This document shows positions 29,161 through 49,872 of a DNA stretch of 64,000 nucleotides, in pieces. Both the position numbers and the translations under genes were made by a program. The DNA comes from Fragilaria crotonensis (lineage: Eukaryota; Bacillariophyta; Fragilariophyceae; Fragilariales; Fragilariaceae): assembly GCA_022925895.1 (NCBI GenBank), contig JAKSYS010000185.1, positions 1 through 64,000 of the forward strand. Direction: 5' to 3'. A model generated the notes under the pieces. That model had not been told where the DNA came from. It saw nothing but the letters and a program-made list of their open reading frames with translations, and searched no databases. The number at the start of each line of letters is the position of its first letter. Position 1 is the stretch's first letter.

Positions 29161-29276
29161 AACATTGAGAAGGTCACAATCATAGATCCATTGCTTTCTG
29201 GACTAAAATTGATCGAAAAGCACCTGTGCCTAACTCTACGAATCGCTACTTCGGTAAGAAAAGCTTGTCCTTCATG
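29161..29276. repeat. Dispersed ~115-bp repeat, copy 1
   Basis: ACATTGAGAAGGTCACAATC through GTAAGAAAAGCTTGTCCT recurs at 36242-36357 with a few substitutions and small indels. Similarity stops abruptly on both sides. This copy ends about 215 bp upstream of the silicon transporter start. Confidence 0.8.
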
Positions 29277-29493
29277 TAATATTTATCTGTGCCGAGCGCT
29301 GCAGTTTTCGTGTGCCTGGGGAACGTCATGAGATACGTCGTATTGCATCGCCTGACCAATGTAGACATCTGTCAACTACCCCAAGCGAAGAAAAGTTGTC
29401 ATGCGGTGAATTAACGCTGAAGTTGTCCCCACCCATGATGCACCGCAATACATCTTCTCACACTTTCGTTTAACAGAAAAAGTCTTAACAACT

Positions 29494-32400
29494 ATGGCGT
29501 CGGAAGACATTGAACTGTCCGTGGGAGAGGGCAAAGAGAGCCCTGTGGTAGTCAACCCTTTTTCCTACAAGACTACCGAAGACGAGCCTGCTGAGAATGT
29601 TGCTGATGAGACAGGCAAGCTTTTCCCTGTAGCGGACGAGCACGGAAAGCCAGCTCACTACCCTGGTGAGGATGACGGTGCCAAGAAGGAGATGGTAGAT
29701 GAGGCAGAAAAAGACCCAGCTGCTCCACGCTCTGTGCTAGGAGCAGCATTGGAATCCTTCAAATACCTCTACTCTAGTGCCCTCCTGGTCTTGTCCGTGC
29801 TGGTCGTTCTTGCTGCTATGTTTACCAACCAGACCACCGCAACTGCTGACTTCGGACTTCACCCTGCCATTGCATTCTTCATCTTCTGGTTCCTCATTGT
29901 CTGGCTCGCCATGATGGAGGGTGGACAAGGTGCCCTCATTGGTCTTCAACCCATTGACAAGGCCTTGTATGCAGAGTCCCATCCCCGCTCTTTGATCAAT
30001 ACCAAGCTCGCACATAAGGGAGACAACATGGAGCGCTTCATCGTCGGACGTCAGTACCTCGTCGTTCTGGTCATCACCGTCATCAACTTGATGGGATCTG
30101 CCATCAAGGGAGCCTCAGTCCTTGGTTTCCCAGGCTGGGCTGATGAAATCTTCCTCGCCAATGGCTTTGCCATGATCTTGACCACCATCATGGTTGGTCA
30201 ATTGACAGCCCAGGTCAACGCTGCTAACTGCATGCTTGACTTCATCAACAACTATTTCATGCTGTTCACTTCCTACGTGTCGTTGGGAATTGAGTTCTCT
30301 GGCCTTCTCCACTGCGTGTACCTTGTTCAGATGATCTTTTCCAAGATCACCGGCAAGCCCATCGAGTCGAACGAGCCACCACGGAATGCTGCCCAAAAGC
30401 TCTTCTTCTGGGGTCGGGTTGTTATGTCTCTTGCAATTCTTGGATTCTCTCTTTCTGTCACTCTCGTCGCTCTCTTCGATGGAAACACCGGCATGTGGGC
30501 TGGTGTCCCACCGTATGTGTCAGTGATCCTCTTGTTCGTCCTGATGGCCGTTGTCGGAATGATGGAAGGTATGCAGATTGCTCTCTTCGCACTCGTCAAC
30601 CTCCCGGAGGAAGAACTTAAGAACTATCCTATTGCCCACGCCAACTGTCAGTTGACCTTCACCGGCCAGAACTTGCAGGCTTTCTTGATCGGTCGTCAAA
30701 TCTTCGTTGCCACCTGCATGTTCGTCGTTGCACGTATTGCGACCCCTACCTACACCAAGGACGATGCCAACATCTTCGGTGTTTCGGATGGATTCCAGGC
30801 GTTCTTGAACTCTGGTCTTACCGGCGCTGTTATCACCACCATCATTGGATCTCTTGCATGGCGTATCATTGCGTCGTCGTTCCCTGTTGCCTTCTTGTCC
30901 AACCCTCTGATCTACATCATCATCCGCGTTTGCCTTGTCCTCGAAAACTCTGGTATCTGTGCCGGTGCCTGGGTTCTTGGCCGCTTCAATAAGCTTATTG
31001 CAGGTTACCAGCCCGACGAGGTCTATCTTGAGGGTGCTGAACGCCACACCGCCGAACCTGTCACTCGTCGCGACGGAGACATTGATCGCCTTCTGACTGT
31101 TATCAAGTTCATTTACTCTTCGGTCTTACTTGTGTTCTGTTTGATTGTTGTCTTTGCGGCGATGTTCACTAACCAGACAGTTGCAACTGCTGACTTGGGA
31201 CTTCACCCTGCCGTTGCATTCTTCATCTTCTGGTTCCTCATTGTCTGGCTCGCCATGATGGAGGGTGGACAAGGAGCCCTCATTGGCCTTCAACCTATCG
31301 ACAAAGAAAAGTATGCCGAATCCCATCCACGCGCTCTGATGAATACCAAGCTTGCGCACAAGGGCGACAACATGGAGCGCTTCATCGTCGGACGTCAGTA
31401 CCTCGTCGTTCTGGTCATCACCGTCATCAACTTGATGGGATCTGCCATCAAGGGAGCCTCGGTCCTTGGTATGCCAAAATGGGCAGATGAAGTCTTCCTC
31501 GCCACCGGTGTCGCCATGATCTTGACCACCATCATGGTTGGTCAATTGACAGCCCAGGTCAATGCTGCTAACTGCATGCTTGACTTCATCAACAACTATT
31601 TCATGCTGTTCACTTCCTACGTGTCGTTGGGAATTGAGTTCTCTGGCCTTCTCCACTGCGTGTACCTTGTTCAGATGATCTTCTCTAAGATCACCGGCAA
31701 GCCCATCGAGTCGAACGAGCCACCACGTAATGCTGCTCAGAACCTTTTCTTCTGGACCCGCGTCATCATGTCCATTGCCATCTTAGGTTTCTGCTTGGCC
31801 GTGACACTTGTTGCCCTATTCGACGGCAAGACCGGCATGTGGGCTGGTGTCCCTCCTTATGTGTCTGTGATCATCTTGTTCATCCTGATGGCCGTTGTCG
31901 GTATGATGGAGGGTATGCAGATTGCTCTCTTTGCTCTTATCAACCTCCCTGAAGAAGAGCTCCGAAGCAGTCCGATTGCCTACGCCAACTGTCAGTTGAC
32001 CTTCACCGGCCAGAACTTGCAGGCTTTCTTGATCGGTCGTCAAATCTTCGTTGCCACCTGCATGTTCGTCGTGGCTCGTATTGCCACCCCTGTCTACACC
32101 GCGGACGATGCCAACATCTTCGGTGTTTCGGATGGATTCCAGGCTTTCTTGAACTCTGGTCTCACCGGCGCTGTTATCACCACCATCATTGGATCTCTCG
32201 CATGGCGTATCATTGCGTCGTCCTTCCCACTCGCTTTCTTGTCCAACCCTCTGATCTACATCATTATCCGTATCTGTTTGATCCTCGAGTCGTGCGGAAT
32301 CTGCTCCGGCGCCTGGGTTCTTGGGCGCTTCAATAAGCTTATTGTTGGATATCAGCCCGACGAGGTCTACCTCGAGGGTGCTGAACGCCACACCTCCGCT

Positions 32401-33780
32401 CCAGTCACCAAGCGCGACAAGGATATTGACGTTTCCATGACCACTGTTAAGTACTTGTACTCGATGGCGCTCTTGATCTTCTCCGTGATTGTTGTCATGG
32501 CCGCCATGTTTACCAGCCAAACCAAGGTTTCCATTGATGCCCACCCGGTTGTGGCTTTCTTGCTGTTCTGGTTCCTCATTGTCTGGCTCGCCATGATGGA
32601 GGGTGGACAAGGTTGCCTCGTTGGTCTCCAACCTGTTGACAAGGACTTGTACAAGGACTCACATAAGGTCACATACAAGAACACGATGCTTGCCCACAAG
32701 GGAGACAACATGGAGCGCTTCATCGTTGGACGTCAATTCCTTGTTGTCCTTGTGATCACTGTTATCAACTTGTGCGGTGCCTCCATCAAGGGTGCACAGG
32801 TGCTCGGACTCAGCAGTGGAGTCACTGAGGTCTTCCTCGGAGCTGGTGTTGCCATGATCTTGACTACAATTATGCTCGGTCAGCTCACTGCGCAGGTTAA
32901 TGCGGCGAATTGCATGCTCGACTTCATCAACACCTACTTCATGCTCTTCACGTCGTACGTCTCATTGGGTATTGAGTTCTCCGGACTTCTTCATTCGGTG
33001 TACCTTGTCCAGATCTTCTTCTCCAAAATCACCGGAAAGCCCATTGACTCGAACGAACCACCTCGCTCGGGTGCCCAGAAACTCTTCTTCTGGGCTCGTG
33101 TCTTGATGTCCCTTGCCATCCTTGCCTTTTCCTTGGCAGTAACCCTCGTTGCGCTGTTTGATGGCAAGACCACTATGTACGAGGGTGTGCCACCATACGC
33201 TTCCGTCATCATCTTCTTCATTCTGATGGGTGTTGTTGGTATGATGGAGGGTATGCAAATTGCACTGTTTGCGGTTGTCAACCTTCCTGAGGACGAGTTG
33301 AAGAGCTACCCTGTGGCCTTCAAGGTGTGCCAACTCACTTTTGCTGGAAGCAACTTGCAATCCTTCCTTGTTGGACGTCAAATCTTCGTCGCCACGTGCA
33401 TGTTCGTTGTTGCCCGTATCGCGTCTCCGAGCTATGGAGAAGGTGATGCCAATATCTTCGGCGTTTCTGATGGTTTCCAAGCCTTCTTGAACACAGGATT
33501 GACGGGAGCCGTGATCACTACCATTATTGGGTCATTGGCATGGCGCATTGTTGCGTCATCGTTCCCAGTTGCCTTCCTCTCCAATCCTCTGATCTACTTC
33601 ATCATTCGCGTTTGCCTTGTACTTGACAGCATCGGTCTTTGCTCTGGTGCCTGGTTTATGGCGCTTATCCACAAGCAACTTGCCGGGTACCAAGTCGATG
33701 AAGTGTACATTGGTACTCCAGAGGAGCGTGCAGCCGCTGCGAAGGTGGTTGACGAGGAAGAGCCGCTACAAGAAGAATAG
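29494..33780 (+). CDS. Triple-domain silicon transporter (SIT)
   Basis: Sodium-coupled silicic acid uptake protein of diatoms, 1,428 aa, intronless and intact. After an ~80-residue acidic cytosolic N-terminus come three SIT domains with a period of 446-448 residues. Each holds the paired signatures of the family: EGGQ (142-145, 590-593, 1036-1039) with a GRQ about 43 residues later (185-187 in domain 1), then EGMQ (358-361 in domain 1) followed by a second GRQ (400-402). About ten hydrophobic helices are visible per domain, for example AIAFFIFWFLIVWLAMM and VVLVITVINLMG. Linkers share YQPDEVYLEGAERHT. Single SITs are about 500-600 aa and often end in a coiled coil; here the C-terminus is short and acidic. 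Domains 1 and 2 are more alike than either is to 3. It should sit in the plasma membrane or in silica-related membranes. Confidence 0.95.
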   Translation: MASEDIELSVGEGKESPVVVNPFSYKTTEDEPAENVADETGKLFPVADEHGKPAHYPGEDDGAKKEMVDEAEKDPAAPRSVLGAALESFKYLYSSALLVLSVLVVLAAMFTNQTTATADFGLHPAIAFFIFWFLIVWLAMMEGGQGALIGLQPIDKALYAESHPRSLINTKLAHKGDNMERFIVGRQYLVVLVITVINLMGSAIKGASVLGFPGWADEIFLANGFAMILTTIMVGQLTAQVNAANCMLDFINNYFMLFTSYVSLGIEFSGLLHCVYLVQMIFSKITGKPIESNEPPRNAAQKLFFWGRVVMSLAILGFSLSVTLVALFDGNTGMWAGVPPYVSVILLFVLMAVVGMMEGMQIALFALVNLPEEELKNYPIAHANCQLTFTGQNLQAFLIGRQIFVATCMFVVARIATPTYTKDDANIFGVSDGFQAFLNSGLTGAVITTIIGSLAWRIIASSFPVAFLSNPLIYIIIRVCLVLENSGICAGAWVLGRFNKLIAGYQPDEVYLEGAERHTAEPVTRRDGDIDRLLTVIKFIYSSVLLVFCLIVVFAAMFTNQTVATADLGLHPAVAFFIFWFLIVWLAMMEGGQGALIGLQPIDKEKYAESHPRALMNTKLAHKGDNMERFIVGRQYLVVLVITVINLMGSAIKGASVLGMPKWADEVFLATGVAMILTTIMVGQLTAQVNAANCMLDFINNYFMLFTSYVSLGIEFSGLLHCVYLVQMIFSKITGKPIESNEPPRNAAQNLFFWTRVIMSIAILGFCLAVTLVALFDGKTGMWAGVPPYVSVIILFILMAVVGMMEGMQIALFALINLPEEELRSSPIAYANCQLTFTGQNLQAFLIGRQIFVATCMFVVARIATPVYTADDANIFGVSDGFQAFLNSGLTGAVITTIIGSLAWRIIASSFPLAFLSNPLIYIIIRICLILESCGICSGAWVLGRFNKLIVGYQPDEVYLEGAERHTSAPVTKRDKDIDVSMTTVKYLYSMALLIFSVIVVMAAMFTSQTKVSIDAHPVVAFLLFWFLIVWLAMMEGGQGCLVGLQPVDKDLYKDSHKVTYKNTMLAHKGDNMERFIVGRQFLVVLVITVINLCGASIKGAQVLGLSSGVTEVFLGAGVAMILTTIMLGQLTAQVNAANCMLDFINTYFMLFTSYVSLGIEFSGLLHSVYLVQIFFSKITGKPIDSNEPPRSGAQKLFFWARVLMSLAILAFSLAVTLVALFDGKTTMYEGVPPYASVIIFFILMGVVGMMEGMQIALFAVVNLPEDELKSYPVAFKVCQLTFAGSNLQSFLVGRQIFVATCMFVVARIASPSYGEGDANIFGVSDGFQAFLNTGLTGAVITTIIGSLAWRIVASSFPVAFLSNPLIYFIIRVCLVLDSIGLCSGAWFMALIHKQLAGYQVDEVYIGTPEERAAAAKVVDEEEPLQEE

Positions 33781-34237
33781 ATATGATACATTTGCTTTGA
33801 GAGTGCGATGAATCTGCATAAATTGTATGTTGGACCCCGTCGTGGTTAACGATGAGGAGGTCCCTATGGATATAAGACTATTAAGTTTGTGATGATATTC
33901 AATTTTCTGTGCACTAAATGAAGCGGATGTTGTGAGAATATTATTTACTCGAGTACGAGAAGACTGACCGTGTCGTTGTTGAGCTTTACAAAGCCTTGAT
34001 ACGAAGAGCAATGCTGTTAGAACCCAACTTTGGTCTCCCTTAAATAGGTTCGTTGAAATAAGATTGCTCGCGTCGGATGTGGTAGCTGGCTCTTTCCCTT
34101 TCCCTATTTCTATGCGCATCATTCCTTTTTTGAGCTATCCGCTATCACCTTTATAATGGGACTTGTTCGATGGCAGCCGTTCGATGGCACGTCGGTGTGC
34201 ACTGCTGAGTACTCCGGGGGAATCGTGCAAGCCAAGT
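33781..34237. other. Convergent intergenic spacer
   Basis: Between the 3' ends of the SIT (+) and the glycosyltransferase (-). Nothing beyond presumptive 3'UTRs is seen. Confidence 0.4.
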
Positions 34238-35602
34238 TTAGTTTTTGATCTGTATACCTTTGGATTTATAGGCAGATCCGTACTTCTGTTCATCGCGGCG
34301 CACCATCTCCTGCACGAGTTTGTGGCGCTCCTCCGAGTATGTCTTGTTAAGAAAAAAGATCTGTTTAGGGCCTTTGACCTTTCTACCTTCTCGGTAGTAT
34401 TCGCCAGAATTGCCTTCATTTCCCATTCCTTTGATGCAACGGACGAGTATGTCCAGATCCCCAGTAACACGAGAAAGAGGCTTCCCTTTTGTCATCAAGG
34501 TACCGTGCGCATATGTTACGTACTTATTTCGAAGCACTCTTAAATCGTCAAACCAATTATGTAGATGATAGGCGATACCATTTACCGCATCGGTCTTGTC
34601 ACCATCAATTCGTTTGAGACTGAAGGGAATGCCCCAATCGCCTTGAACGCGGCGAATATCAGGGGCGGTGAAGAGTGGATATCGGTTAGACTTCTTCACT
34701 ACTTCTGGGTATTGGTCAATCTCGTCTCTTCCGTACGTCTCGTGACGCTCTCCATACATTCGTTGGTGAGTTCGTAAGGGAACGACACGTTCGGTTGGAT
34801 CCCCGATGCCATCAACACATTCACCACTAATAACGTCGGGGTGGAACCACGGAGTTTTCTTTATACAATATGGAGAGCTCTCATAGGCAACGGTTGAAGG
34901 GGCGATTTTGGGGCGATGACAGCTTGGATCAGGGCGCAAGGCTGGGAAATCACAGGTCTGAACGGCTCGAAGGAAGTCACGAGAGAAGAATTCGTCAGCA
35001 TCAGACATGATACCGACATCTTCCGGCAGCATTCCCGCGTCCTTCCAGCGCTTGACGATAGGATTGCGCTGTTCAGATTCGCGATCCATCCACTTGAGAT
35101 CTTGCCGATCTTCAAGCCAATAATCAATGTACACTTGTGTCTTGGGTCCAAACAGCGCAGAATGTGTCAAGAGATCTCCCTTCCTTGATTCCTTGTACCG
35201 AAGCGGTCGCGGGGAGGCCACGTGCGTTGTGTTGGACTCTACAAAGACAGCAACATGATAAATATCATACACCTCCATAGCATGAATCAGATGAACTTGC
35301 CAATTTTCATCAGCTACCATTGTTCCAAAGAAAATGCGACGCGGCGGACCACTATAGGGCTTGAGACCATAGCGATCGCATCGGATGTCTATGCTTTCCC
35401 TGTCGATACGGGCATGCTCATCTTTGTACAAACTACTGACTTTGAACTTGGGAAGCGAAGCTGCAGTGTCGCGCCTTCTGACGATGTCGCTGCCAGCTGG
35501 ATTGATCGAGGTAGCATCGCATCGTAATGACGATTTCTGAACTGCCATGAGTGCATCCCGTGACATGGCCATGGATGCAAGGCCAACAATTGTTACAATC
35601 AC
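34238..35602 (-). CDS. GT17-like glycosyltransferase, type II membrane protein
   Basis: Probable Golgi enzyme of the beta-1,4-N-acetylglucosaminyltransferase (GT17) type or a diatom-specific relative. The reading frame upstream of the first good Met is hydrophobic (VATVLVIVTIVGLASMAM), suggesting a signal anchor. It has no in-frame ATG before an upstream stop, so the true start is either an unseen upstream exon or the internal Met near 35572. Core features are RIFFGTMVADENW, an acidic VFVESNTTH segment, GIMSDADEFFSRDFL (DxD-like nucleotide-sugar/metal site), WFHPDVISGECVDGIGD, and a C-terminal HLHNWFDDLRVLRNKY. The stop is at 34238. Acceptor and product are unknown. Diatoms carry many SDADEF-type proteins of this kind. 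Confidence 0.6.
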   Translation of the reverse strand: MIVTIVGLASMAMSRDALMAVQKSSLRCDATSINPAGSDIVRRRDTAASLPKFKVSSLYKDEHARIDRESIDIRCDRYGLKPYSGPPRRIFFGTMVADENWQVHLIHAMEVYDIYHVAVFVESNTTHVASPRPLRYKESRKGDLLTHSALFGPKTQVYIDYWLEDRQDLKWMDRESEQRNPIVKRWKDAGMLPEDVGIMSDADEFFSRDFLRAVQTCDFPALRPDPSCHRPKIAPSTVAYESSPYCIKKTPWFHPDVISGECVDGIGDPTERVVPLRTHQRMYGERHETYGRDEIDQYPEVVKKSNRYPLFTAPDIRRVQGDWGIPFSLKRIDGDKTDAVNGIAYHLHNWFDDLRVLRNKYVTYAHGTLMTKGKPLSRVTGDLDILVRCIKGMGNEGNSGEYYREGRKVKGPKQIFFLNKTYSEERHKLVQEMVRRDEQKYGSAYKSKGIQIKN

Positions 35603-36239
35603 CAGGACAGTCGCAACATTCTTGAAACTACATTGTAATATCCATCAATTTGATTCTAATCGTATACACACTCTACTATAAGGTATTACGACCATGGGCC
35701 TCCACCGAAATGTTGTGTCGTATCGACAAACGCGTCCCTGGCGCACGAAATGAGCGTGGGATTTAAGGCACGGGAGCACGGGAGTTCAGGAATGTCCGAT
35801 GTCCATCTAACTAAAGAACGTTCACCGAGTGCGCCACAGCAATACACGTATGCATATGACATATGCATACACACTCCAATATACTCCAGTACCAGTCACC
35901 AGTCACTGGTACCAATACATACTACTACTAGTACGAGTACCAGGGTACAAGTACTTCATGGGGCACCATATCATACAGTTCACGGGCTATGGGCTATGCG
36001 CTACAAAACAATGACGCGTGCCTGTGTATGCAAGTACTTCATATATGGTACCTGGTACCTGGTACCTGGTACTTGTACGCATGGCTCACCGCTCACCGCT
36101 TACCGCTCCCTTTTCTTTTTTGCAAAGCCTTTGGCTGGAATTTCACCTGACACGTCATTGACATAATCGACAAATAGGAAAACTTCACAATTTTGGGCGC
36201 CCAGATCGAATTTTAGATGACAAGAATTTCAAATGTCGT
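35603..36239. other. Intergenic with GTAC-rich block
   Basis: About 35870-36080 is rich in GTAC/GGTACC, including three tandem GGTACCT units near 36048-36070 and TACTCCAGTACCAGT. The left end should contain the glycosyltransferase promoter or a first exon. No gene recognised. Confidence 0.5.
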
Positions 36240-36241
36240 AA

Positions 36242-36357
36242 AACATTGAGAAGGTCACAATCATAGATCCACCACTGCTTTCTGGACTAAACTTCGATGG
36301 AAAAGCACCTGTGCCTAACTCTACGAATCGCTACTTTGGTAAGAAAAGCTTGTCCTG
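36242..36357. repeat. Dispersed ~115-bp repeat, copy 2
   Basis: Second copy of the 29161-29276 repeat in the same orientation, with a 3-base insertion after GATCCA and scattered changes. The flanks are unrelated. Confidence 0.8.
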
Positions 36358-36859: not shown

Positions 36860-38998
36860 ATGTACACTCTTGGTGAGAAGATTCTCCACTATCTTGGTGG
36901 ACACATCTGTCAACATCATTGGACAGCTATTAAGGCTGTCATTGTCTTTAAAGCTGGAGTGACTGTTTCGAAGTTGCCCCCCGATGAGCAAGTCCGCAAA
37001 GATTTTGACTATTTACCACAACAGTATCAACTTCAGCGTACGGGTGAAAGAGATGTGGCGATACACTTCCCGCAACAATTCACGAGACCAGACGGCACCA
37101 CGGGGTCAAGCACATTCTACGACTGCAAACCCGACTGGTTCTCGGCTACCATACCGAGGATGGCCGCACCCACTGACATAACGGGCCATCAGATTTTCCA
37201 CGCATCCAGTTCAACTGTCTCGTTCCCACTACAAGCTGCGCCCTCAAAGTCCTTTCAAGAGTGGATTCAACAATTACCAGAAGCAGAACAATCGCTGATT
37301 TCGACAGTCTCTCTCGCAATGTGTGATGCCGAACATCTACTACTCCAGTATCTTCAAATAGCATGTACCATCCAGATTGGCACTGTTGGAGAAAACAAAC
37401 ATCACCGAGGAGCTTTCTCATGGATAATTTGCGCCCCTGGGCGAGAGCACCTTGTGCTAAATACTGGCACTGTGGATGGATGGCAGAAATGTCAGAACTC
37501 CCTTCGCAGCGAAATCACTGCAATTGCATCGGTGACCTTATATCTGACTGAGCTTGCCAAATTCCACTCTCTGACAATTCAGAGCAAACTCAAACTCTTT
37601 GTGAATAGCTCCAGTGCGATCCGAGAGGTCTCAAATGTCCGCGACATGATCCCCAAACGAAAGATGGCAAACAACGCTGATCTTTTGAGTATGTTGCGTG
37701 ATGCACCTTCAGTTATACGTCACTTTCATCTGTCCAAAAGGCACCGACATAATGATGCCGACACCATCGCCGTTGAGCTACGCCCTTTCTCGGCACAGTT
37801 GAATGACCTATGTACCAGCATGGCGACAAGTCACCTGGCACGATTCCCGACACGTCAGGCAGAGAATACTCCATCTCGATACATCTGTCCAAGATCCCTC
37901 CCGGTAGCGGTCTTCTTTCGGTCTCACCATGTATCATCGAACTACATTCCGATTATACGTGACGAAATCACCTCGCGTAGACACCGTGCTTTCCTCCAAA
38001 AAAAATACAAATGGAATGATGACATTACAGCAACAGTTGCGTGGGAGGCGTTCTCCCTATGTGGACATCGCGTCCGAAATGACAAAGCTCCTACTCGGTC
38101 CAAGTTGGTTCATAACTGGCTCAATGTAGGTGCCCAACGGGCCAAACACGGGACCGTTGAGTCCGTCACTCTCAGGGCATGTCCATACTGCGCTCTCCCT
38201 GAAGATTTCGTTCACCTTCTAAGTTGCCGCTCTCCCAAAGCAATGACGTCACGGTATGATGCAGTCATAGTTCTCAAGAAGGCTTTGGGAGAAAGTGCCG
38301 GCAATATCTCCATCTTCCGTGCAATCACCCAATGGACCCTGCACCCAACAGTCACCCCAACGCTTCCATCCGGCGTACCTAGTCTTCAGACATCAATCAA
38401 TCGTGCTGTCCAATCCCAAACCGATATCGGCTGGCTGAATCTGTTTCGAGGTATCATAAGTGCGGAGTGGGGAAATGTTACTACTGAAGATTCCTCATCC
38501 CCTATGTCACGCGGAGTACACTCGACTGCGGCTGTCCACCACCTTGCGGGGACTATACGAGCCCTCCAAGATTACTCGATTGCCATCTGGAAAAGTCGAA
38601 ATGAAGTCCTTCACCAGAATGCCGAACTCAGTAACGATATTCTCCGTGCGCAACTCCACCATGAGATTACCACCATGTACTCTCTTCAAAATACCTTCTC
38701 TCCCATCCTTCAGAGCTACTTCGCAAAGCCACTTGAAGACCAACTCCTATGCCAGATGCGACAAAAGCAGCGATGGCTTCGTCTTGTGCGACTCGCAACG
38801 TCGCATGCAACATCGAAAGGTTCGCGACAGCAAGTGATGTCAAGCTACTTTCCGCACGCGACGAACATTCCCGAGAATGTACAACTGGCTACTGTACCAA
38901 TGGAAACTATGCCACGCATCCAATCGGCTTCTCATCAAGTACCGATACTCCAGTATTTCCCACCAATAGTGAGGGCGACTACTCCCACAACAGACTAA
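36860..38998 (+). mobile_element. Retroelement C-terminal ORF (RNase H-like, zinc-binding), 5'-truncated
   Basis: Long intact frame of 712 aa lacking any reverse transcriptase. An RNase H-like fold is suggested by GAFSWIICAPGREHLV, the SLRSEITAIASVTLYLTELA helix with its acidic residue, and LKLFVNSSSAI. In active enzymes the first strand carries Asp and the last reads (Y/F)xDxxxA, here Asn. Then come the HLSKRHRHNDADTIAVELRP region and an RSKLVHNWL...CPYC...FVHLLSC zinc-binding module, the order found at the C-terminus of diatom LINE-like elements as I know them. Catalytic aspartates appear lost. It is probably a truncated or domesticated copy. The ATG at 36860 is simply the first in frame. 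Confidence 0.55.
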
Positions 38999-40547
38999 CT
39001 TGTACTCCGTACGAGTCATCCGTCAATCATCCCAGACACTACAACATCCGCCCGCCGTTGAGGCCAGCAACATGAAATGCAGTTGCCTAGAAGTAGACAA
39101 CTGATAAACATGTAAGAAGAGTTTAGTATTAATATCAATGATTTGAATCCTATTGTATTCAGCAATGACTTGACGACCTTCTCACCGGCTTATTTTGGGT
39201 GAAGGGCAAAGAAATGCAAGGAGATCATCTCTATCAATATTACCTTGACTCTCGGGGCAAAATGAGAAGCCAAATCATCCAACACTTGCCAGCAAACTTT
39301 GTCAGCATGAGAAGTGGAAAAGGTTTCCATAAGGACTCAGCATTTATCAACTCAGCTCTACTAGATGAATGTTGCAAAAATATTGTTGTATTTCCTGGTG
39401 TCCTGACTCCACCAGCAACAAATGTACACACAACTGGCATGCAGACAGGACTCCGAGTCTTTGCTGCTGTGATACAGACATGTCATGCATTCATTTTTTC
39501 TTGCTGGTTCTTTTAAAATTCATACGCTGTTCTTGTGCAGAATACATCAATCATATTTCTGAGAAGAACATCTTCACCTTGCCCCTGCTCACGGAGGATA
39601 CTAGTCATTCCAGGTGCTGTTCTGTGTTCTTGTGTCATTGTTGATTTTGATGCAGCTTTGACATCGGACAACAAGACTTTTCTTGGCATGGTGAACAATT
39701 AACTACCACATCTAAGATAAACTGCTGTATTTGATCATTTTGGATCACTGTTGACAAGGAATGAGTGTCTCTGTTTGACTGATTAGACTCAAAGCATGTT
39801 CCTTGGACTTATTGCTATTACTGTTTGGCTGGGCAGAGTCAAGACTCCCCTGAATAATGTGCTCTTACTGATTTCTTTGGCTTGATGTCCTGAAGTAAAT
39901 GTACACAAAGAAGGAGACACCATGCCAAGAAATTCGGCAGGTAGCTGTCTCTCAAGGAATCAGTACATGAGCAACTTTTCTGTGACTTGTCACTGTAGTC
40001 TTCTACTGTCACCATGATGAAAGTAGTAAGCACATTATGGTGCTCATAAGATAGAATGCAATCTGCAGCTTTTATGTAGATGATTAGCCACTTAATCTTG
40101 AGCTTTGCAATGAAGAATGATGTGCACCTGGCGTGTTAAAACAATGCTATCAACAAATCACTGGAATATTGTTAAGCTTCTAATTACCTTCTGTAGGTCA
40201 AATTAACATTTTTATCACATAAAGGCATCACCATCAACTACTAACAACTCACACCTCTAAGGAATTGCTCTCGTACGCTGATGACCTAATACTCTGATAG
40301 ACGTGAACCATGCATACAACTGTACCAGGTACCCTACTCCGGTGCTCCGGAGTATGTACTCGTTGTACTCCTAGCTCAGTTTCTGTTGTATGTTCATATG
40401 TACTAGTGGGTACTAGTACCTCACATTTGATCGGAGTGTGTACTGCTACAGGAATCTGGACGTACAGTACCCCAAACTGGTCGTACTCCGTACCAATACT
40501 TTTTTCCCCTACAGTATGCAGTACCATGGTACCAAAGTAAGTAACTT
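38999..40547. other. Intergenic, no confident gene
   Basis: Contains short frames (for example 39199-39516 +, 105 aa) without recognisable domains. A GTAC-rich stretch at about 40310-40540 abuts the left LTR. Confidence 0.4.
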
Positions 40548-41044
40548 TGACAGTATTCGTGTAGACGGTACGCGAGTACTGGCCGACAGTACGCTGAAGG
40601 ACGGTAGGTCCGGGCGTACGCATGACGGACTTGGAGCACAGGCCACTGGCGGACATGGCTTTGGGCGACGTAGTAGGGTTGACCATGGTGAATGTAAGTA
40701 GTACAAATGTGTAGATATGTAGTGGAACAATAGGAGGGAAGTAAAGGCCTTTACTTTGTGTGTTAATGGAAGTTGTAGATGTAGAATAATGAGAATAGAA
40801 GTGGGGGAACCAAATGATGAAAAAGTGAGGTGCAGATGAGACTCGAGGCTAATGTAGATGGCATCCGATTTAGTACCAGGGTCGTGTAGACCGGTACGTA
40901 GAAATGAGATGGCATCTACATTAGTCCGGATGGCATCTCAAATTCAAATGGTTACGCGGGACAAGAGGTCTGATTCTCAGGAGCTAGTGTTGTGACGGAA
41001 AGTGGTCAGACGACTCATGACGGTGCAACAGTAGATCTCTATCA
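40548..41044 (-). repeat. 3' LTR (497 bp)
   Basis: Matches 51589-52089 with one substitution (CATTAGT/CATTAGG) and about four single- or double-base indels. Ends are TGACAG...TATCA. Contains GATGGCATCTA-type internal repeats and GTAC motifs. Confidence 0.95.
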
Positions 41045-44000
41045 CCCTCTTGGATCAGATCTCAGGTCCCAAAGTTGGTGAAGAAAGCATGTGGTCAGGT
41101 AGGATGCAGAAAATCTTCTTGAGGTGTGGATCAATTTTGCCAGAAAGTTGTGTCTTGGTGAGAATATCAGCAAGTTGATAGTCACAAGGGATCCAGTGAA
41201 GTTGGTGGATACCGTCTTGTTGGCCTTGGCGGACAAAATGGAAGCGTCGTTCAATGTGACGGGTCTTGCGGGTGAGTTTGCCATTTTGGCAATCTGGACA
41301 GTGGCTTCATTGTCAATCATTAAGATTGCAGGAGTGGTTGGTAAGCGCTGGGTGGATTCACGCCATTGTTTTGTGCCAAGATAGAGCATGTCATAGAGGA
41401 GCATGCGGATGTGGGCAGTGGCCATGGTGGCAGAGCATGCAGCCATATATTCAGCTTCAGAGGTTGACATGGCAACTGGAGTGGGCATGGTTGAGTTTGC
41501 TTCAATAAGTGCTCCATTGTGGAAGATCATGTAGCCAATGGTTGAGCGGCCAGTGTCTGGGCAGTCTTGCCAGCTGGCATCAGAGAAAACAGTAAGATCA
41601 GCATAGGGAATGCGATGTTGTAGGCAGATCTCATAGATAGGATTGGATGTGCAATCAGGGTAGAACTTGAGTGCATAGTAGGGACGGCGGCGTAGGTAGC
41701 CGATGAGCCAGGTGAGGGCACGGAAGTCAAGAATTCCAGGAGCAATACAGGCTTTAGCAAGTTTGCAGACAGCAAAGAGGATATCAGCTCTGGTGTTGTA
41801 TGCCAGGTAGAGGAGAGTGCAGACGGCGGAGCGAAAGGGGAGTCGTTGCTGCTTTTGTGCAACAAGTGCAATGTCTTGTTCTGTGACAGGACGGTTTTCT
41901 TTGCTGAAGGTGTAGTCTGGCGGGAATGGAGTGTCGCGTTCGGGGAATTCGGAATTCGGGTCATAACGTTGAAGGGTGTTCAAGACATAACGGTGCTGGT
42001 CCAAGGTATAGGTTGAGTCTTGGTGCTGGTGAATGCGCATTTGCAGGAACCATTGTGCAGGACCAAGGAATTTGACATCAAAGCGGTTTTTGACGGAATC
42101 TTCAAATTGTTTTTCAATGGAATCATTGCTGCCAGCATACAGCATATCATCAACGAAGAAAAGGAGGCGGAGCCATTGGTTGTGTTTGTCATATCGGACA
42201 AAGTAGGATGGTTCAGATTGGGATTGGATAAAACCTTGGGAGTATAGCCATTCAGAAAATTCAATGTTCCAGTATTTGCCAGAGTAGACAAGGCCATAGA
42301 TTCCTTTGTCCAGGAGAAGTGGTTTGCCAAAGAATTTAGCATATTCAGGGAAATGAAAAGCATATTCCAATGGGAGCTTGACAAAGTGGCGGCCAATGAC
42401 TTTAGCTTGCAAGTAGGCGCCAATAAAGTCAGCACTTTTGAGTGTGCGTCGGGAAGCACAAATTGTGGAGAGAAGGAGCTTGACCCCTCTTGAAGATGCA
42501 CAGGGTGACCAAGTGTCCTCAAAGGGTTGAGGAATTTCAATTGGTTGGACTTTTGGTGTTGGGGAGGCAGTGGCATTAGCAATGTCTTGACGCTGTTGAA
42601 GGAGATGTTGCTGATGTGCGGCTTTTGCTTTCTTTAAAGACGTTTCTCCAAGTCGCCTCGGGCGACCAGGCGAGCTTTAAGTTTCTCAAGTTTGCCAGTT
42701 GCTGTTTGTTTGGCTTTGAGAACAAGTTTGACAGGAATGATAGGGTCAGCTTGGGATGGAGTTTGTCCAAGGATGAATGTGCCATGATCAATGAGATTCT
42801 TGATTTCCATGCGAATTGCATGTAGCCAGGCAGAGCGTATGTCATCATCAAGTTTGAGGACAGCTTTAAGAGATTGTGGCTCAGGAAGGTATTTGTCAAC
42901 AGGTTCAGCAGGTTCTTCTTGACTGATAGTTGCATTATCAATGGTGAGCATGGCAGTGTGAATGGGATCAATGGAAGGAGGATCTTCATTACACTCTTGG
43001 AAGTAGAGGGTCATCATCTTTTGTAGATTGGAATGGCAGTGTTGGTGGCCAATGTAGTTCACTTGGTGTGGTGTTGGTGGTGTAGGGCCATGTTGATCAT
43101 CATTATGGGAGGCATCAGGAAGTGCCACAAGTGATGTTGGGAGTTCGGAGGCATCAAGGAAATGTGATGGAGGATTGCCGAGATCAGCGGCTGAGCCAGT
43201 TTGGTGAAAAGTTGCAGGTTCAGAGTTGTCAGCAGTGTTGCGGAGGCCATTGGGATTGAAATGGGAGCGTATAGGAACAGCTCCAGCAAAGGGCTTTGAA
43301 TCAAAGCATAGGGCAGAGTTGAAGTCTTCATCAAAGTAGGCGTCACGTGTGATAATGAGGCTTTGCGGTTGATCAGGAGAATAGATGAGCCAGCCTGCAG
43401 AGTTTTCAGGGAATCCAAGGAATATACCACGGGAAGCGCGTTGGAGTTGCTGCTTATAGGTAATGATCTTGTTGCGGAAAGTTGGTTCATAACGCTTGAA
43501 GAAGGTTGGGCAACCAAAGATGCGGAAATTGCCTAGATTGGGCTTGCGTTTGTAGCTGAATTGATATGGAGTTGTTGGGATTCCATTGATGTCAGTGACA
43601 TTCTTGGCTGGGCAGACATTGATAATGTGGACAGCATAGGCATGTGCATGGTGGAAGAAGGCACCGCCAAGTCGGGCATTGTTGAGGAGGGTATTGGCTG
43701 TGTTGTGGACTTCACGCCATTTAGCTTCACAGATACCGTTCATTTCTTGATGTTCTGGGGCAGCAGCTTCAACTTTTATGCCAAGGTTGGTGCATTCGGT
43801 GATGAATTTTGCAGAGGTAAATGCGGTTCCAGCATCGGTGCGGATGAAGCGGACGGATTGTGTTCGGCCAAGGAGTTCTGTTTGGGTCAGCCATGACTTG
43901 AGGGCTGTGATGATGGATGCTGTGCTTTCAGTTGGTAGACCAATCCAGCCAGTAAGTTTGCCAGGTGTTGTGACAATGAATAGATAGGCAGAATAGTTGG

Positions 44001-44991
44001 TGTTTGTTGTAAGACCATAACGGAATGGGTTGCGCATCAAGTCAAGATGTAGTCGATGGAAGGGATCGGTACCTTCACGTTGCGGGGTCTTGTTTCGAGC
44101 ACGTTTTTGGCTGATAGATATACGGAGAGGCCAAGTGTTTGGATCAATGGTTGGAGAGAGTACATGGTCATTCCAGGTTTGGTGAAGAGATCCAACCATT
44201 AGATTTCGGAAATTGCGGTAAGCAAGGCGTCGAGCAACAAGCTCGAGAGGTAGGGTGGTTACGGATCGTCGTTGATCAGGGTTGATGGTGTCAACAGTGT
44301 CAGCAAAGTGGTCTTCTGCTGGTGAAGAGTCAGATTCAAGGTTGACATTGGGTAAAGATATGGCTGAGAAGGCTTGATGTGGTGGTAGTTCACGGCGTAG
44401 GATGGGCCACGTGTACGTAGAATTGTTTGGAAGTTGGATGGTGGTGGCACGATTGTGAATCAAGACACTGAAGTTTTGTGTGCATGATAGTGCGGTCAAG
44501 GAAAGTAGGCGATGGCTGAGGCCTTCAACATAGTAGACATCAGTTAGGCCAAGGATGGATTTCATACCATCATCAGTAGTGAAGGGACATTCTGTGGTGC
44601 CTTTGTAGGTAGACAATTTAGTACTGCCATCAGCAAGGGAGACAGGTACACTGCAGGGTGTGACATCATGGAGGTCACTGAAGACTGGTGTGTAGTGGCT
44701 GGTTGCACCACTGTCAGGAAGCCAATTTTCAAGAAGAGGTGGGCCAAAACGTTGATGAGGAGATTGTGGGTCATCAGGGAAATAGTATGTGGCTCCAGAA
44801 TTGGGAGGAGAGTGATTGCCAGAAGGTTGAAAGTCTTGATCAAGGAGGTGTTGGTTGATCTCCATTTGGGGGGAGGGCTGGGTTTGGCCAAGGGATTGAG
44901 TCAGGAGTGTCATCCATTGGGTCAAGAGATGAAGCACGGAAAGCTTGGTGATAAACATTTTCTTGCATGTTTTCTCCTGAGTCAGTGACAA
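41042..44991 (-). CDS. Copia pol: protease, integrase, reverse transcriptase, RNase H
   Basis: Polyprotein in two frames. The first (44991-42634) has the aspartic protease site NWLPDSGATSHYTP, an integrase core with LHLDLM, RFIRTDAGTAF and MNGICEAKWREVHN (the D, D and E), and the start of RT (LKARLVARGDLEKR). It meets a TAA at 42634. The protein continues in the next frame (KKAKAAHQQHLLQQ...SADFIGAYLQAKVIGRHFVK), consistent with one missing base near 42636-42640. This part has the RT active site LRLLFFVDDMLYAG and RNase H motifs TVFSDASW, STSEAEYMA and LMIDNEA. The TGA stop (41044-41042) lies within the first three bases of the 3' LTR. Pol overlaps gag by 10 bases in another frame, suggesting frameshifted expression. 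Confidence 0.9.
41045..41051 (-). other. Polypurine tract
   Basis: Minus-strand AAGAGGG immediately precedes the TG of the 3' LTR, the position of the plus-strand DNA primer in LTR elements. Confidence 0.6.
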
Positions 44992-46376
44992 AGTAGGCTC
45001 GTTGTTGATTGCGGGGGAGCGGAATTTTCATTGTTTGAAGATGATCGAGAGGATGGGCCTCGATTGGAAGTTGCATTGCGTGCGGGGTTGGTGCAGTTGC
45101 GGGAATAGTGACCGAGTCTGCCGCAGTTGTTGCAGACAATGTTTGCAGCATTGGATTGGTTGCGGTTTTGATTGTTAGTGTTACCGTTGGTAGATGGGCG
45201 GTGATTTGAATTCGGCAGTTGACGAAGAGGTGGTCGATTTGTACGCTGTTGTTGCGTTGATGGACGTGTTGACGGAGCGTTGGTGCGACGGTGGTTGTTG
45301 GTGTTTTGCGGGGTTTGTCGCTGGGCGTTCGGTAAGGGAGGTCCACGGTGTTGTCGATGCTGTTGTCGGGTGGGGTTGTTTCCACCATTGTTGGTATAAG
45401 GACGTAGGATTGAGCTGAAAGCTTGTTGTTGTCGTTGAGTGAAGTTTCGAATAGTGGTGCCTTGTTGTGGACGGAAAGTCGTTTGGCGTGCAGAGTTTGC
45501 ATGTTGATTAAAGTGGCGGTGACTCATAGATGGGATTGTAAGACCACGGGATTCATCGATGTTGAGAAGATGACTTTCAAGTTCGGAGAATTGTGGCAGA
45601 GCTTCGTCGTTTAGTTCGGCGCGGCGAATGTCGGCATCAAAACGTTGGTATGATGCAGCATAAAAGGAATGATTGCTTCCTCCACGGACAGTTCTTTTAA
45701 TCAGTTCGGCATCAGAGTTTGGTATTCCAGCATGGTAACAATCACGCGAGATGGTGCGGATGCGGTTAAGATAGGAAGTAGCAACTTCGTTGTGCGGTTG
45801 TTTGATAGAGCAAAAAGCTTCGCGAGTGCGTTCGATATGATCTGGCGTTAAGGGAGCACAGTGGCGACGCAGGGTGAAGATAGCAGTTCTTGCATCTGGA
45901 GGTCCATCAATGATGTGTTTTTGACAGGGTTCACTGATGTTGGTGAAGATCAAGTTGTAGAGAGCTGTGCCAACAAATGGATGGGAGTAACATACTTGTT
46001 GGGGCCAAAGATCAAAGACTTGGCGAGTCCAGGGGGAAATGTTACAGACAATGCGGAGATTGTCCATAAAAGTATTGAAATGGCGTCGACGGGCTTGTAA
46101 ATCTGTTGGATAGGCCAGTTTGCGAAGATTTGCATTTTTGGCGTACTTCAGAAGAGTCTTTGTTAGATCTTCAATCGGAGGATAGGTGAAATCAGTCCGG
46201 GTGGAAGATGTCAGCACATCAGGTGATGTGGGCTTCAACTGTTTTGGATCTTCTTCAGAGTCATGGTCAGTATCATTGTCAAAGAATGTTTCAATTGTTG
46301 GTGGATAGGAAAAGGTAGCGTGGGTCGCCGGGCGCGGAGTTTGTTGACGGGACTCAAGGTTTTGAGTTTTTGTCAT
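44982..46376 (-). CDS. Copia gag with CCHC zinc knuckle
   Basis: Nucleocapsid/capsid protein of 464 aa, intact. The central part (about 60-300; RRRHFNTFMDNLRIVCNISP, LYNLIFTNISEPCQKHI, SYLNRIRTISRDCYHAGIP) resembles UBN2-type copia Gag capsid domains. The C-terminal third is Gln/Asn/Arg-rich and carries the zinc knuckle CNNCGRLGHYSRNC (C-X2-C-X4-H-X4-C). It assembles particles and binds element RNA. Its start lies about 190 bases after the end of the unrecognised ORF3. The position of gag in the middle of the element rather than next to the 5' LTR is unusual. Confidence 0.88.
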   Translation of the reverse strand: MTKTQNLESRQQTPRPATHATFSYPPTIETFFDNDTDHDSEEDPKQLKPTSPDVLTSSTRTDFTYPPIEDLTKTLLKYAKNANLRKLAYPTDLQARRRHFNTFMDNLRIVCNISPWTRQVFDLWPQQVCYSHPFVGTALYNLIFTNISEPCQKHIIDGPPDARTAIFTLRRHCAPLTPDHIERTREAFCSIKQPHNEVATSYLNRIRTISRDCYHAGIPNSDAELIKRTVRGGSNHSFYAASYQRFDADIRRAELNDEALPQFSELESHLLNIDESRGLTIPSMSHRHFNQHANSARQTTFRPQQGTTIRNFTQRQQQAFSSILRPYTNNGGNNPTRQQHRQHRGPPLPNAQRQTPQNTNNHRRTNAPSTRPSTQQQRTNRPPLRQLPNSNHRPSTNGNTNNQNRNQSNAANIVCNNCGRLGHYSRNCTNPARNATSNRGPSSRSSSNNENSAPPQSTTSLLCH

Positions 46377-46568
46377 TTTGTTGATTTATTTCCGGTCATT
46401 GAGGAGTTTTGTGTAGATTTGGGTATTGACATTTTGACGGTTGAAGAATTTCGTCCTCATGTTTTGGGAGCAGCGACGGATTTAGTGACGGATTTTGTTG
46501 CACGGGGTTCGAATCCGTAGGTGATGTGTTTTTGGAACGTATATTTTCGGTCGCGGTAGAAAATGTTG

Positions 46569-48834
46569 TCAAAACCGGGTGGTTGGGGTTCGAGTCGGTT
46601 GTAGCCGGGACGTGAGGTGTTTTTGCGTTTTCGGCGTTATGATGCTTGAAAATGCGTCAGAAATGCGCTGAAGTGGTCCAGGTGTTGCATTTGCCGATTG
46701 AGGTGACCTTGAGGGTGTTTCGGTGTGCGAAGTGTCGGTTTCAGGCGAGTTTTGCTGTGAAATCGCGAGATTTTGTTGTGTTCCGGGCAGAGATTGAGTT
46801 TCTTGCACTTGTTCCTCATACGTGGTTTCTTCGTCGGTTTCGAGGGGATTTTCAGCAGTATTGGCGTCGTTTTGCGTGGAAAATTCGCGTGCAGTGTCGT
46901 TTTGTGCAGGAATTTCGTGCTGGAGGTCCGGGGTTCGAGTCGGGGGCTGATTTAGTGACGAACGTCGTGTTTGTACCGCTAGAAAAGCGTGATGTGTACC
47001 CGTAAACGTGTTTTTATCCTCTTGGAATTTAATTACTGGTTGACTTTCAGCTAAATCTTGCGCATTTGGACAGAAATTGCTGTCGTGCATAGAAATAGGT
47101 AAGTCACCAGTAAAATATCCAGGATAATTCAATTGAGGTGGACTAGACTCACCTGTTCCATCAAGATTGATGGGTGAGTCAGGTCCCCTTGAATCAATAT
47201 ATGGGTATTCTGGGTGGTTGTGTTTCTCTCGATAGAAATAAGAGAGGTGATTGTTGAAAAGTTGCAATTCGGGATCACGGAGGGCATCATTGAGATGCGG
47301 AGCGCCCAGGCTCGATAAACGTTGTTTCCAGATGGGGAAATGGTGTAAACTGGGATCAAGCGGATAGCCAGGGAAAATGGAATCTTTGTGGGATCACGGG
47401 CAATGTGATACATTTGTGAGTGCTCATTTCGCCAAAGTTCAGCAGGATTATGCTGAATCCAGTCTGGGTCATCCAAATTGTAGGTTTGGAGAGGCTTGGC
47501 AGCTTGCTTGTAGAAGAGGGACTTGACTGATTCCTTGGTGTAGGGATTTCCATCAGGATCAATGATGATTGGTTGTTGGTCATGATCAAGGGTGACAGGG
47601 AAGATTCCAGCTCTTGCTGTTGGGATGGCCATTTCAGTTGGAGAGCCATAAGAATAGGTTGGGCCACAGAGTGGTGAACCTTGGAAGATAACACCATGTG
47701 AAGGTGGGCAGTTCTTGGGAAGGATGCCTGTTGGATCTTTTGGATCAATCAGTTGCACAACGCGGAATAGGATGTACTCAGAATGCGGTAGAAAATCGAT
47801 TGAGTCATTGGCAGAATTGGTTGCAATTGGGGTGACTGTCTGCAGGGCATCGATGTAACGTAGGGGATCATGATACTGAAGATTCATGATAGTTGTGATG
47901 TTGAATGGTTTGCAAACAACAAAATTGATGGCAAGGGCTGTGTCAGTGGAGTATGAAGTGGCCAGCTGAACATCTGAAGGTTTGGTAACCATTGGGAAGG
48001 AAACTGAGAAGGCAGTGAGCAGGTGGTCTGCTGGTGGTAGATTGCCAACAATGATCTCATACTGAGAGAATTCAGGGTCTCTGGAGATGCAGATTTTGTG
48101 GTGAGCCATGCCATGTTGAAGGATGGCGAAACGGATGAACTCTTGAGCAATGTGTAGTGTTGTGGCTTGGGTGTCTGCATGGGTGTCAAAGGTATTGACA
48201 AAGGCAGTTGTGAATGGATTTGCAGCTCTGAATTGTGATTCAATATGTGTGACACTTGATTGGAGATTTTCAAGTTGATGATGGGTTAATTCATCGGGTG
48301 GCATCGGGAACTGATCAATATCCTGGAAGGTGTCTTGAATGAAGTAGGGTAGTTTTCGGAATGTTGTTGACTTGGGAAATAAACTGAGTGCTGCAGCCGA
48401 AGAGTTGATATCACGAGCGATTTCGTGAAGATTTCAGGGTAGAAGAGATGCTTTGGGTATCCAAGTGTGTTGTAGTTTCTGTGATGAACAAGGTACATCA
48501 TTCTCAGAGCATAGATAAATGCAGTTGCACACTTTGACATGATTTCTGACTGATCATCATCCAGGTCATTGAAGGAAGATGGGAGGTTCTGCGGAAATAG
48601 TTCACGTTGTGGCGATCGCAGATGTGCGAGCAATAGATAGGTTGCCCGATTCAGTGTGTGGGTCATGCATTCGACTGATAGAATGTCAGACAAGGGGCGT
48701 CCCATATGGTAGGGAGCTCGTGTGATGTGAAGGGATCGACTGTTGATTGAATAAAAATACCAGAAAAGGTGGTGCCGATTGATATCACGGATGTAGTTCA
48801 CAGCCGGGGTGCATCCAAATAGTTCAGGCAGAAA
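46569..48834 (-). CDS. Unrecognised retrotransposon ORF3 (broken into three frames)
   Basis: Three overlapping minus-strand frames read as one protein of about 740 residues. The first (from about 48834, IFLPELFGCTPAVNYIRDIN) switches near 48425 to EIARDINSSAAALSLFPK, then MPPDELTHHQLENLQSSV. It switches again near 47300 to PHLNDALRDPELQLFNNH and ends at 46569. Each switch fits one missing base. The middle portion is well-mixed globular sequence; the last ~200 residues are Thr/Pro/Gln/Glu-rich. No domain is recognised. It is separated from ORF2 by a single in-frame TAA at 48856, so ORF2 and ORF3 may be one reading frame. Confidence 0.55.
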
Positions 48835-48855
48835 GATGCAATGGTGATGCTTGTG

Positions 48856-49872
48856 TTAACGCAGATTGGCAAGTCGCGGAGGCGAATAGGGCCATTTTGT
48901 CATCATGTAGAATAGCATCTGGGAAGGATAGCTCTGCGGAGCATTGTAGTCCTCTTCTTGGAACATTCGGAAAGGGTTGAGATGAATTTCCGAAAGATTA
49001 TCGTCGGGGCGATAGGGTGGGTCCGGGAATAAACTGGGTAGCATTCTTGCTGGTGGTTGGTACTCTGAAGGTAAGTCTTCTTCTTGGGCTTCATTTGCTG
49101 AGAGTAAGTCGTTGGGTTGGTCATCATCAAATGATTTGTTTTCCTCCATGCAAAGCATTGCAAAGTGTCCTTCATCATCATGTGAGTGAAAAGGAGGAGA
49201 AACAGGGTAAGCAAAACTGTTGTCATTACTAGGTAAATTATTACTGTCAGAGTAATAATTTATCCCAGTGTTGATTTCAGGGTTGTCCTCATCAGGTAAA
49301 TCCTCAAGTTTGATTGGAACAGGGTGCTGGACTTCATCATGAAGAGTGGCTTGACTGCTTGTAGGGTTTGTGTTGGACAACGTGCAGTGGGCCAAGTGGG
49401 GAAGATTGAGTCCCGTATCGGTCTTAACAACTGTAGTCAAATATACAGTAGTGTCTCTGCGATGGTAAGGCGGGGAAGCACCGGTGGTTGGTGACGGCGT
49501 CCCAGGGCTTGGTGATACATCTGTACTGCGTACGGGAGAGCAGTAAGAGTAGGCTGGCGAACAGAAGGGGTATCGCGGCGTAGAAAGGTCGGAGAAGCAT
49601 CGCGGTGTGTTCGCTGTATTGGAGCGCGGAGTGTAGCTCTCGGAGGAGCTCGAAGGGGGTAGGCTGATATTTTCGTCGACGTCAGCGTATCCGGGAATGA
49701 TGACATCATGGTTCTCATCAATGACGTCAGGACGGTTCTGATACGGTTGGAGGGCGCTTTCCAGGTGAGCGAGTAAATTTTGTGGGTGACAAGTGTCCAG
49801 CGAGCGAAGAGATTCTGGGGTTGTCTGTTTCAGAATTTTGCAAAGTTCCAACGTCAAGAACTGCACTTTCAT
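48856..49872 (-). CDS. Unrecognised retrotransposon ORF2 (338 aa)
   Basis: Starts MKVQFLTLELCKILKQTTPE, a compact helical N-terminus, then runs into a Pro/Ser-rich and acidic region (EDLPDEDNPEINTG, FDDDQPNDLL). It ends at a TAA at 48856, after which the same frame stays open into ORF3. It overlaps the end of ORF1 by about 145 bases in another frame, so it may be expressed by frameshift or be joined to ORF1 in intact copies. No domain recognised. Confidence 0.5.
   Translation of the reverse strand: MKVQFLTLELCKILKQTTPESLRSLDTCHPQNLLAHLESALQPYQNRPDVIDENHDVIIPGYADVDENISLPPSSSSESYTPRSNTANTPRCFSDLSTPRYPFCSPAYSYCSPVRSTDVSPSPGTPSPTTGASPPYHRRDTTVYLTTVVKTDTGLNLPHLAHCTLSNTNPTSSQATLHDEVQHPVPIKLEDLPDEDNPEINTGINYYSDSNNLPSNDNSFAYPVSPPFHSHDDEGHFAMLCMEENKSFDDDQPNDLLSANEAQEEDLPSEYQPPARMLPSLFPDPPYRPDDNLSEIHLNPFRMFQEEDYNAPQSYPSQMLFYMMTKWPYSPPRLANLR

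Follow-up and report, generated by a model that had tools for sequence, protein, structure and literature searches.

A three-unit silicon transporter gene of Fragilaria crotonensis and a hybrid two-unit relative in the same assembly

The three-unit gene and its reading frame

The uptake of silicon by diatoms drives the silica cycle of the ocean. Here, a gene of the diatom Fragilaria crotonensis is described in which three silicon transporter (SIT) units are joined in one protein. It lies in a stretch of 64,000 nucleotides (C97:1-64000, hereafter the window), corresponding to the first part of contig JAKSYS010000185.1 in the 62.1-Mb, 881-contig assembly GCA_022925895.1. The frame runs from an ATG to its stop codon over 1,428 residues, and the Pfam model PF03842 (Silic_transp) matches the whole protein in three stretches with 1774 bits, against a gathering score of 26.8, while each unit taken separately scores 580-642 bits. 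The matches, here named units A, B and C, contain no internal stops, and the direct repeats that they form in the DNA are spaced by 1344 and 1338 nucleotides (448 and 446 codons), with a nucleotide identity of 63-95%. Three SIT units thus stand head to tail in one frame, and at least two in this arrangement make a multi-SIT. The window contains no N bases, and the strand opposite the gene also has shorter frames. The coordinates of all features are collected in Table 1.

The SIT family is defined by 10 transmembrane segments and two EGXQ-GRQ motif pairs (PMC5100055). Each unit carries a GGQ with a GRQ, a GMQ with a second GRQ and a single CMLD motif; its hydropathy profile has ten peaks, which makes 30 for the entire protein, and both family-defining traits are found in all three units. 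A preliminary description of the locus, made from the sequence alone, had claimed a SIT with three repeats of about 447 residues in a single intact frame of 1,428 residues, each unit with both motif pairs, and on all these points the present analysis agrees with it. Moreover, the N-terminal and C-terminal halves of unit B, the only unit for which this comparison is given, are 30% identical across 166 residues (E 3.6e-18), and an internal 5+5 repeat is known for SITs (PMC5100055, PMC4742977); by homology, the protein would hold six five-helix repeats (3 x 2).

Past the last hydropathy peak the protein continues for 51 residues, and the best Pfam stretch ends at model position 445 of 513. The earlier remark that the usual C-terminal tail of coiled-coil length is missing is therefore correct, judged by length alone. 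This absence is not diagnostic, because Thalassiosirales SITs, for which CCTOP gave ten transmembrane domains, are reported to be without coiled-coil motifs (PMC10700740). A sequence search of the PDB with the whole protein gave no match at E <= 1, and Rfam gave none in the window at gathering scores. For the B-C part (980 residues), a structure modelled from the single sequence reached a mean predicted local distance difference test (pLDDT) score of 42, too poor for an interface to be read from it, and the model of unit B was weak.

Units A and B are 90% identical, while C is 76-77% identical to either of them. The ratio of replacement to silent substitution rates (dN/dS) is 0.145 for A-B, 0.095 for A-C and 0.091 for B-C, the last two values being rough since the silent distances to unit C are near saturation. 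The longest exact matches between units measure 119 nucleotides for A/B, 48 for A/C and 47 for B/C.

Table 1. Positions of the features discussed in the text (window positions unless a contig or locus is named)
Feature	Position	Strand	Basis or remark
Three-unit silicon transporter (multi-SIT)	29494..33780	+	single frame, 1,428 codons
Acidic N-terminal extension (codons 1-88)	29494..29757	+	ahead of unit A; without counterpart in units B and C
Unit A	29749..31056	+	PF03842 match (C97, genome search)
Unit B	31093..32430	+	PF03842 match (C97, genome search)
Unit C	32437..33762	+	PF03842 match (C97, genome search)
GGQ	A 29920..29928, B 31264..31272, C 32602..32610	+	motif scan
First GRQ	A 30046..30054, B 31390..31398, C 32728..32736	+	motif scan
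CMLD	A 30229..30240, B 31573..31584, C 32911..32922	+	motif scan
GMQ	A 30568..30576, B 31912..31920, C 33250..33258	+	motif scan
Second GRQ	A 30691..30699, B 32035..32043, C 33373..33381	+	motif scan
Linker A-B (codons 484-539)	30943..31110	+	peak 10 of A to peak 1 of B; YQPDEVYL, RR, DGDID
RR (525-526) then DGDID (527-531)	31066..31086	+	sequence scan
Linker B-C (codons 932-987)	32287..32454	+	YQPDEVYL, KR, DKDID
KR (973-974) then DKDID (975-979)	32410..32430	+	sequence scan
YQVDEVYI, C-tail of unit C	33688..33711	+	register as linker YQPDEVYL
Shared segment, SIT and GT17 gene	29287..36245		second copy C771:19311-24794
Direct repeat, 111 bp	29161..29271		left of shared segment; repeat comparison
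Glycosyltransferase family 17 (GT17) gene	34238..35602	-	convergent neighbour in shared segment; PF04724, 6.3e-10
Direct repeat, 115 bp	36242..36356		right end of shared segment; 93% to left copy
Two-unit SIT frame, 1,008 residues (980 from ATG)	C771:21646-24669 = L009:5647-8670	-	beside GT17 copy
Full-length diatom-type SIT, long C-terminal tail	L025:1186-2871		JACUUV010000112.1, Clostridia metagenome-assembled genome (MAG)

Related copies in the genome and the shared segment

A search of the genome with PF03842 gave 19 matches, 18 of them above the cut-off, of which three are the units on C97 and two lie in a single frame on contig C771. Compared with the three-unit gene, the C771 gene has one 448-codon unit fewer, with the frame kept. 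Its second unit is a unit C (21 differences in 1,365 nucleotides), and the two copies of C are separated by 11 silent and 5 replacement changes, a dN/dS of 0.135. The first unit is a hybrid of A and B. When its sequence is mapped on the 194 sites that distinguish A from B, a single breakpoint fits best between codons 297 and 300. On the left (to codon 297), 82 of 90 sites agree with A, 5 with B and 3 with neither; on the right (from codon 300), 97 of 104 agree with B, 5 with A and 2 with neither. A crossover deleting exactly one 448-codon unit would give this pattern. Assembly collapse would predict a switch within the longest tract shared by A and B (119 nucleotides, about codons 243-281); the breakpoint lies outside this tract, which argues mildly against mere collapse.

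The silent differences between A and B of the three-unit gene are patchy, the longest silent-identical run (39 codons) being equalled in 44 of 20,000 shuffles. Furthermore, sites at which A and B agree and the two-unit gene differs cluster at codons 116-190 (15/204 versus 7/943 elsewhere; Fisher p 2e-7, a value that is too small since the interval was picked post hoc). We read this as a sign that A and B have recently been homogenised in patches. In a midpoint-rooted tree of 11 rows, comprising the multi-SIT units, single-unit SITs of the genome and L025 (see below), the five multi-SIT units group together (100/100), apart from the single-unit SITs of the genome and L025. Within this group, the two C units pair with support of 97/94 and units A and B join the hybrid with 100/100, the pairing of B with the hybrid reaching just 84/88.

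Single-unit SITs are located on C188, C703, C349 and C637. One C188 copy is intact, and about 18 kb from it lies a second one (L011:1991-7123), split by an insert of about 3.5 kb, whose two parts are 98% and 87% alike to the intact relative. The copies on C703 (L012), C637 (L013) and C349 (L014) have broken frames, for which decay, sequence error or introns are possible causes; those on C703 and C349 are 98% alike, the likeness extending past the gene. Two relics on C76 and C169 (L015:1850-2494 and L016:1777-2424), whose frames are broken, resemble unit B (89-90% over about 650 columns) and are 99% alike along 1.27 kb, and C1, C218 and C871 bear three additional short PF03842 matches. Outside this genome, a viral contig collection gave no relatives with either unit C or a five-row profile as query, and a genome contig collection gave none with unit C and one, L025, with the profile. 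L025 covers the Pfam model up to position 506 of 513, and its presence in a Clostridia MAG is most likely due to diatom contamination of the bin.

The three-unit gene and its GT17 neighbour form a segment that is shared with C771. In a comparison of C771 with C97:1-92000 (E <= 1e-5), no further similarity was found on either side of the segment, C771 ending 264 bases past its SIT side. The possibility that C771 is an allele of C97 is disfavoured, given that similarity ends at 29287 and 36245 and that C771:1-19310 is unmatched at that threshold. Such an arrangement would be expected if a duplicate had entered a staggered break, and the flanking 111/115-bp repeats are possibly a long target-site duplication.

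Several other elements were recorded in these regions. GT17 relatives, 72-76% identical, are found on C119, C564 and C99 (two places), contigs that are absent from the PF03842 matches. Just past the shared segment, positions 36860-38998 hold a 712-residue frame with no Pfam match at E 0.01, which in our view resembles the end of a non-LTR (long terminal repeat) retrotransposon protein. The stretch 40527-52089 is LTR-retrotransposon-like: its pair of direct repeats, each about 520 bp long, is 97.7% alike, its minus strand encodes zinc-knuckle and retroviral-pol-like domains, and its GC skew is strong. An element of about 740 bp at L020:4872-5616 resembles a miniature inverted-repeat transposable element, as its terminal inverted repeats measure 35 bp and it has dozens of genomic relatives; C771 carries arrays of a repeat of about 207 nucleotides in two blocks that are 68-87% alike (L020:489-9000, L021:1-389).

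The linkers between units

The unit boundaries of multi-SITs have been reported to carry the motifs YQXDXVYL and DXDID (PMC6114903), and both occur in both linkers of the three-unit gene, YQPDEVYL starting at residues 505 and 953. In the same source DXDID is proposed as a caspase-type site, an uncut working chain being also allowed (PMC6114903). The two motifs have counterparts at the ends of single-unit SITs. In fact, the single-unit N-leader PLPD[I/L]SDNVTLFK aligns with DGDIDRLLTVIK and DKDIDVSMTTVK of the linkers, with D, T and K in common and the I additionally common to the linkers and the N-leaders of the two C188 copies. This register is seen in all five single-unit N-termini of the genome (two C188 copies, C703, C349, C637), which are close kin and not independent cases. 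On the other side, the C-tails FKRDEEYI (5 of 5 of the genome) and FQRDEVYI (L025) align with YQPDEVYL. A general rule is made doubtful by the short N-leader of L025, which is without such a D-I (an unseen exon being possible), and by the leader of unit A, which also lacks it.

Each linker thus looks like a SIT C-tail fused to a SIT N-leader and, on these alignments, the YQXDXVYL site occurs beyond multi-SITs. Both linker motifs line up with the termini of single-unit SITs, so that proteolysis is not required to account for either of them, and the published argument that the conservation of DXDID marks such a site is weakened.

Interpretation and comparison with known multi-SITs

The reading that we favour, with a probability of about 0.72, is that the gene encodes a multi-SIT with three autonomous 10-helix silicic-acid transport units in one chain. 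The gene would have been built by in-frame tandem duplication, in which C split first from the ancestor of A and B, and A from B later. Each unit would be a complete 10-helix (5+5) silicic-acid transporter, coupled to Na+ as in the published biochemistry of single SITs, which are Na+/silicic acid symporters in which four GXQ motifs play a role (PMC4912633). As each unit has an even count of helices, all units would have the same membrane orientation, with the linkers on the side of both ends. Every unit would transport independently and the gene, if expressed, would yield three transporters per message; this autonomy is suggested by the full set of motifs that every unit retains and by the variation of unit number between related genes. 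The number of units would itself be variable, considering that a two-unit locus exists and that A and B appear to swap sequence.

Some observations weigh against this reading. The loop between helices 5 and 6 contains 4-5 K/R residues but would lie outside in a 10-helix topology whose two ends are inside, and the predicted positive-inside pattern is therefore imperfect. In codons 1-84 of the N-terminal extension, the three- and two-unit genes differ by 1 silent and 5 replacement changes, so that no purifying selection is seen there. Residues under equally strong selection could serve a fixed complex instead, and the two-unit gene of C771 might be a further three-unit gene that collapsed in the assembly.

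A polyprotein, i.e., a chain cut at both linkers into three mature transporters, is conceivable, even if we give it somewhat less than even odds; it would be a refinement in processing, compatible with the three autonomous units. The cut would most likely fall after RR or KR and be made by a cytosolic protease with specificity for basic residues, for example a metacaspase; a caspase-like enzyme acting at DxDID would be the less likely agent. The 1,428 residues contain only three dibasic pairs (KK64, RR525, KR973), two of which abut the DxDID motifs, and KR is kept at this place in the two-unit relative. Caspases are described as restricted to metazoans, while PtMCA-IIIc, a diatom metacaspase, cleaves after Arg, and in Phaeodactylum tricornutum extracts Arg cleavage dominates, exceeding caspase-type activity by an order of magnitude (PMC8455989). 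Moreover, an anti-SIT blot of Synedra acus is reported to give a protein of about 64 kDa, proteins of 94 or 152 kDa being not evident in that account (PMC6114903), a result that seems to lean towards cutting. Against a cut stands the homology of the linkers, by which the two coincident pairs are not independent. The small number of pairs is unremarkable for the composition (three or fewer in 5,394 of 20,000 shuffles), and cytosolic loops are expected to hold basic residues. The registers of DxDID with PLPDISDNV/PLPDLSDNV and of YQPDEVYL with single-SIT C-tails make conservation without cleavage possible.

The placement of RR and KR before DxDID agrees with an Arg-cutting diatom metacaspase; it is a lead, not a demonstration, and it offers a specific and testable alternative to DXDID as the cut site. 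In an extended and rather doubtful version, the gene would encode a membrane polyprotein, cut behind the dibasic pair in front of each DxDID by a cytosolic, Arg/Lys-specific metacaspase-like enzyme, so that one message would yield three separate transporters, with its unit number tuned by unit-length crossovers and A/B conversion. If this were true, the aspartate-specific site of the literature would be misplaced by a few residues and assigned to the wrong protease class.

The preliminary description had also suggested that a covalent trimer fixes stoichiometry. An obligate oligomer of this kind, whose assembly the fusion would aid, seems to us unlikely. It could appeal to the homotetramers cited for SITs in yeast (PMC5100055), to the peak of PtSIT1 in detergent at about 150 kDa (PMC4912633) and to the 56-residue linkers between hydropathy peaks, which would permit side-by-side packing. 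A trimer, though, does not fit a tetramer, and a two-unit form is found in the same genome, as are two- and three-unit forms in other diatoms (PMC6114903), which leaves the suggestion unsupported. No more probable is a division of labour, in which A and B would differ in role from C (one transporting with high and the other with low affinity, for instance, or one acting in sensing). The greater distance of C would agree with it, and a like remark has been made for SuSIT1 of Synedra ulna (PMC6114903), but the four GxQ motifs and CMLD are kept in all three units and the strength of selection is similar for the different pairs of units.

An assembly artefact from misjoined tandem genes, or a dying pseudogene, is hardly credible even in a genome where several other SIT copies have broken frames, given a frame without interruption between 29494 and its stop at 33780, a window free of N, dN/dS far under 1, exact matches of at most 119 nucleotides (so that reads longer than about 120 nucleotides resolve the order of units) and the fact that collapse deletes units and never adds them. 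The length of the frame, the selection acting on it and the lengths of the repeats led us to reject a chance frame, a misjoin and a pseudogene. As to the collapsed or misjoined cluster that had been named earlier as a possible refutation, the short exact matches between units and the dN/dS make it unlikely, as judged from the assembly sequence alone.

With three units in one frame, the F. crotonensis gene is a further multi-SIT, a class that is already published. For this class, 46 genes and 48 full-length sequences have been reported from 17 species of all three diatom classes, with two or three units (PMC6114903), and two-unit SITs have been reported in Parmales (PMC10328945). The earlier statement that multi-domain SITs are known was right, but their attribution to some pennate diatoms was too narrow, since centric and multipolar centric diatoms and Parmales have them too (PMC6114903, PMC10328945). 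To the available portions of these accounts, the present analysis adds the hybrid two-unit relative, the probable A/B homogenisation, the linker register and the dibasic lead. Furthermore, a genome with a three-unit gene, a two-unit gene with a mapped junction and single-unit genes offers a clean comparison for whether unit number matters.

The closest descriptions are those of SuSIT1/2 and SuSIT3 from Synedra ulna subsp. danica (PMC6114903), compared here by description only, which like the present gene have three units in one frame. In SuSIT1, too, A and B are similar and C is more distant; the SuSIT units (436-446 residues) have one CMLD, four GXQ, YQXDXVYL and DXDID, as here, and SuSIT3 measures 1,416 residues against 1,428 (PMC6114903). 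The spacer between SuSIT1 and SuSIT2 is called non-coding (PMC6114903), whereas here a GT17 gene follows the SIT. In Synedra acus subsp. radians, SaSIT-TRI and SaSIT-TD represent three- and two-unit genes in one genome, as in F. crotonensis, and SaSIT-TD has been proposed to derive by losing parts of A and B, resembling the C771 hybrid (PMC6114903). The two Synedra genes are 4 kb apart on one chromosome (PMC6114903), while those described here are on separate contigs (C97 and C771) with differing flanks. The Parmales SITs share the concatenation of units, reported in clade B, but have two units, which go back to several duplications of the domain in the Triparma lineage (PMC10328945). Finally, single-unit SITs (such as a C188 copy and L025) have the same 10-helix unit, motifs and C-tail register, the N-leader register being confined to the five copies of the genome, and differ from the three-unit protein in having one unit and a longer C-terminal tail, L025 following the Pfam model up to position 506 of 513.

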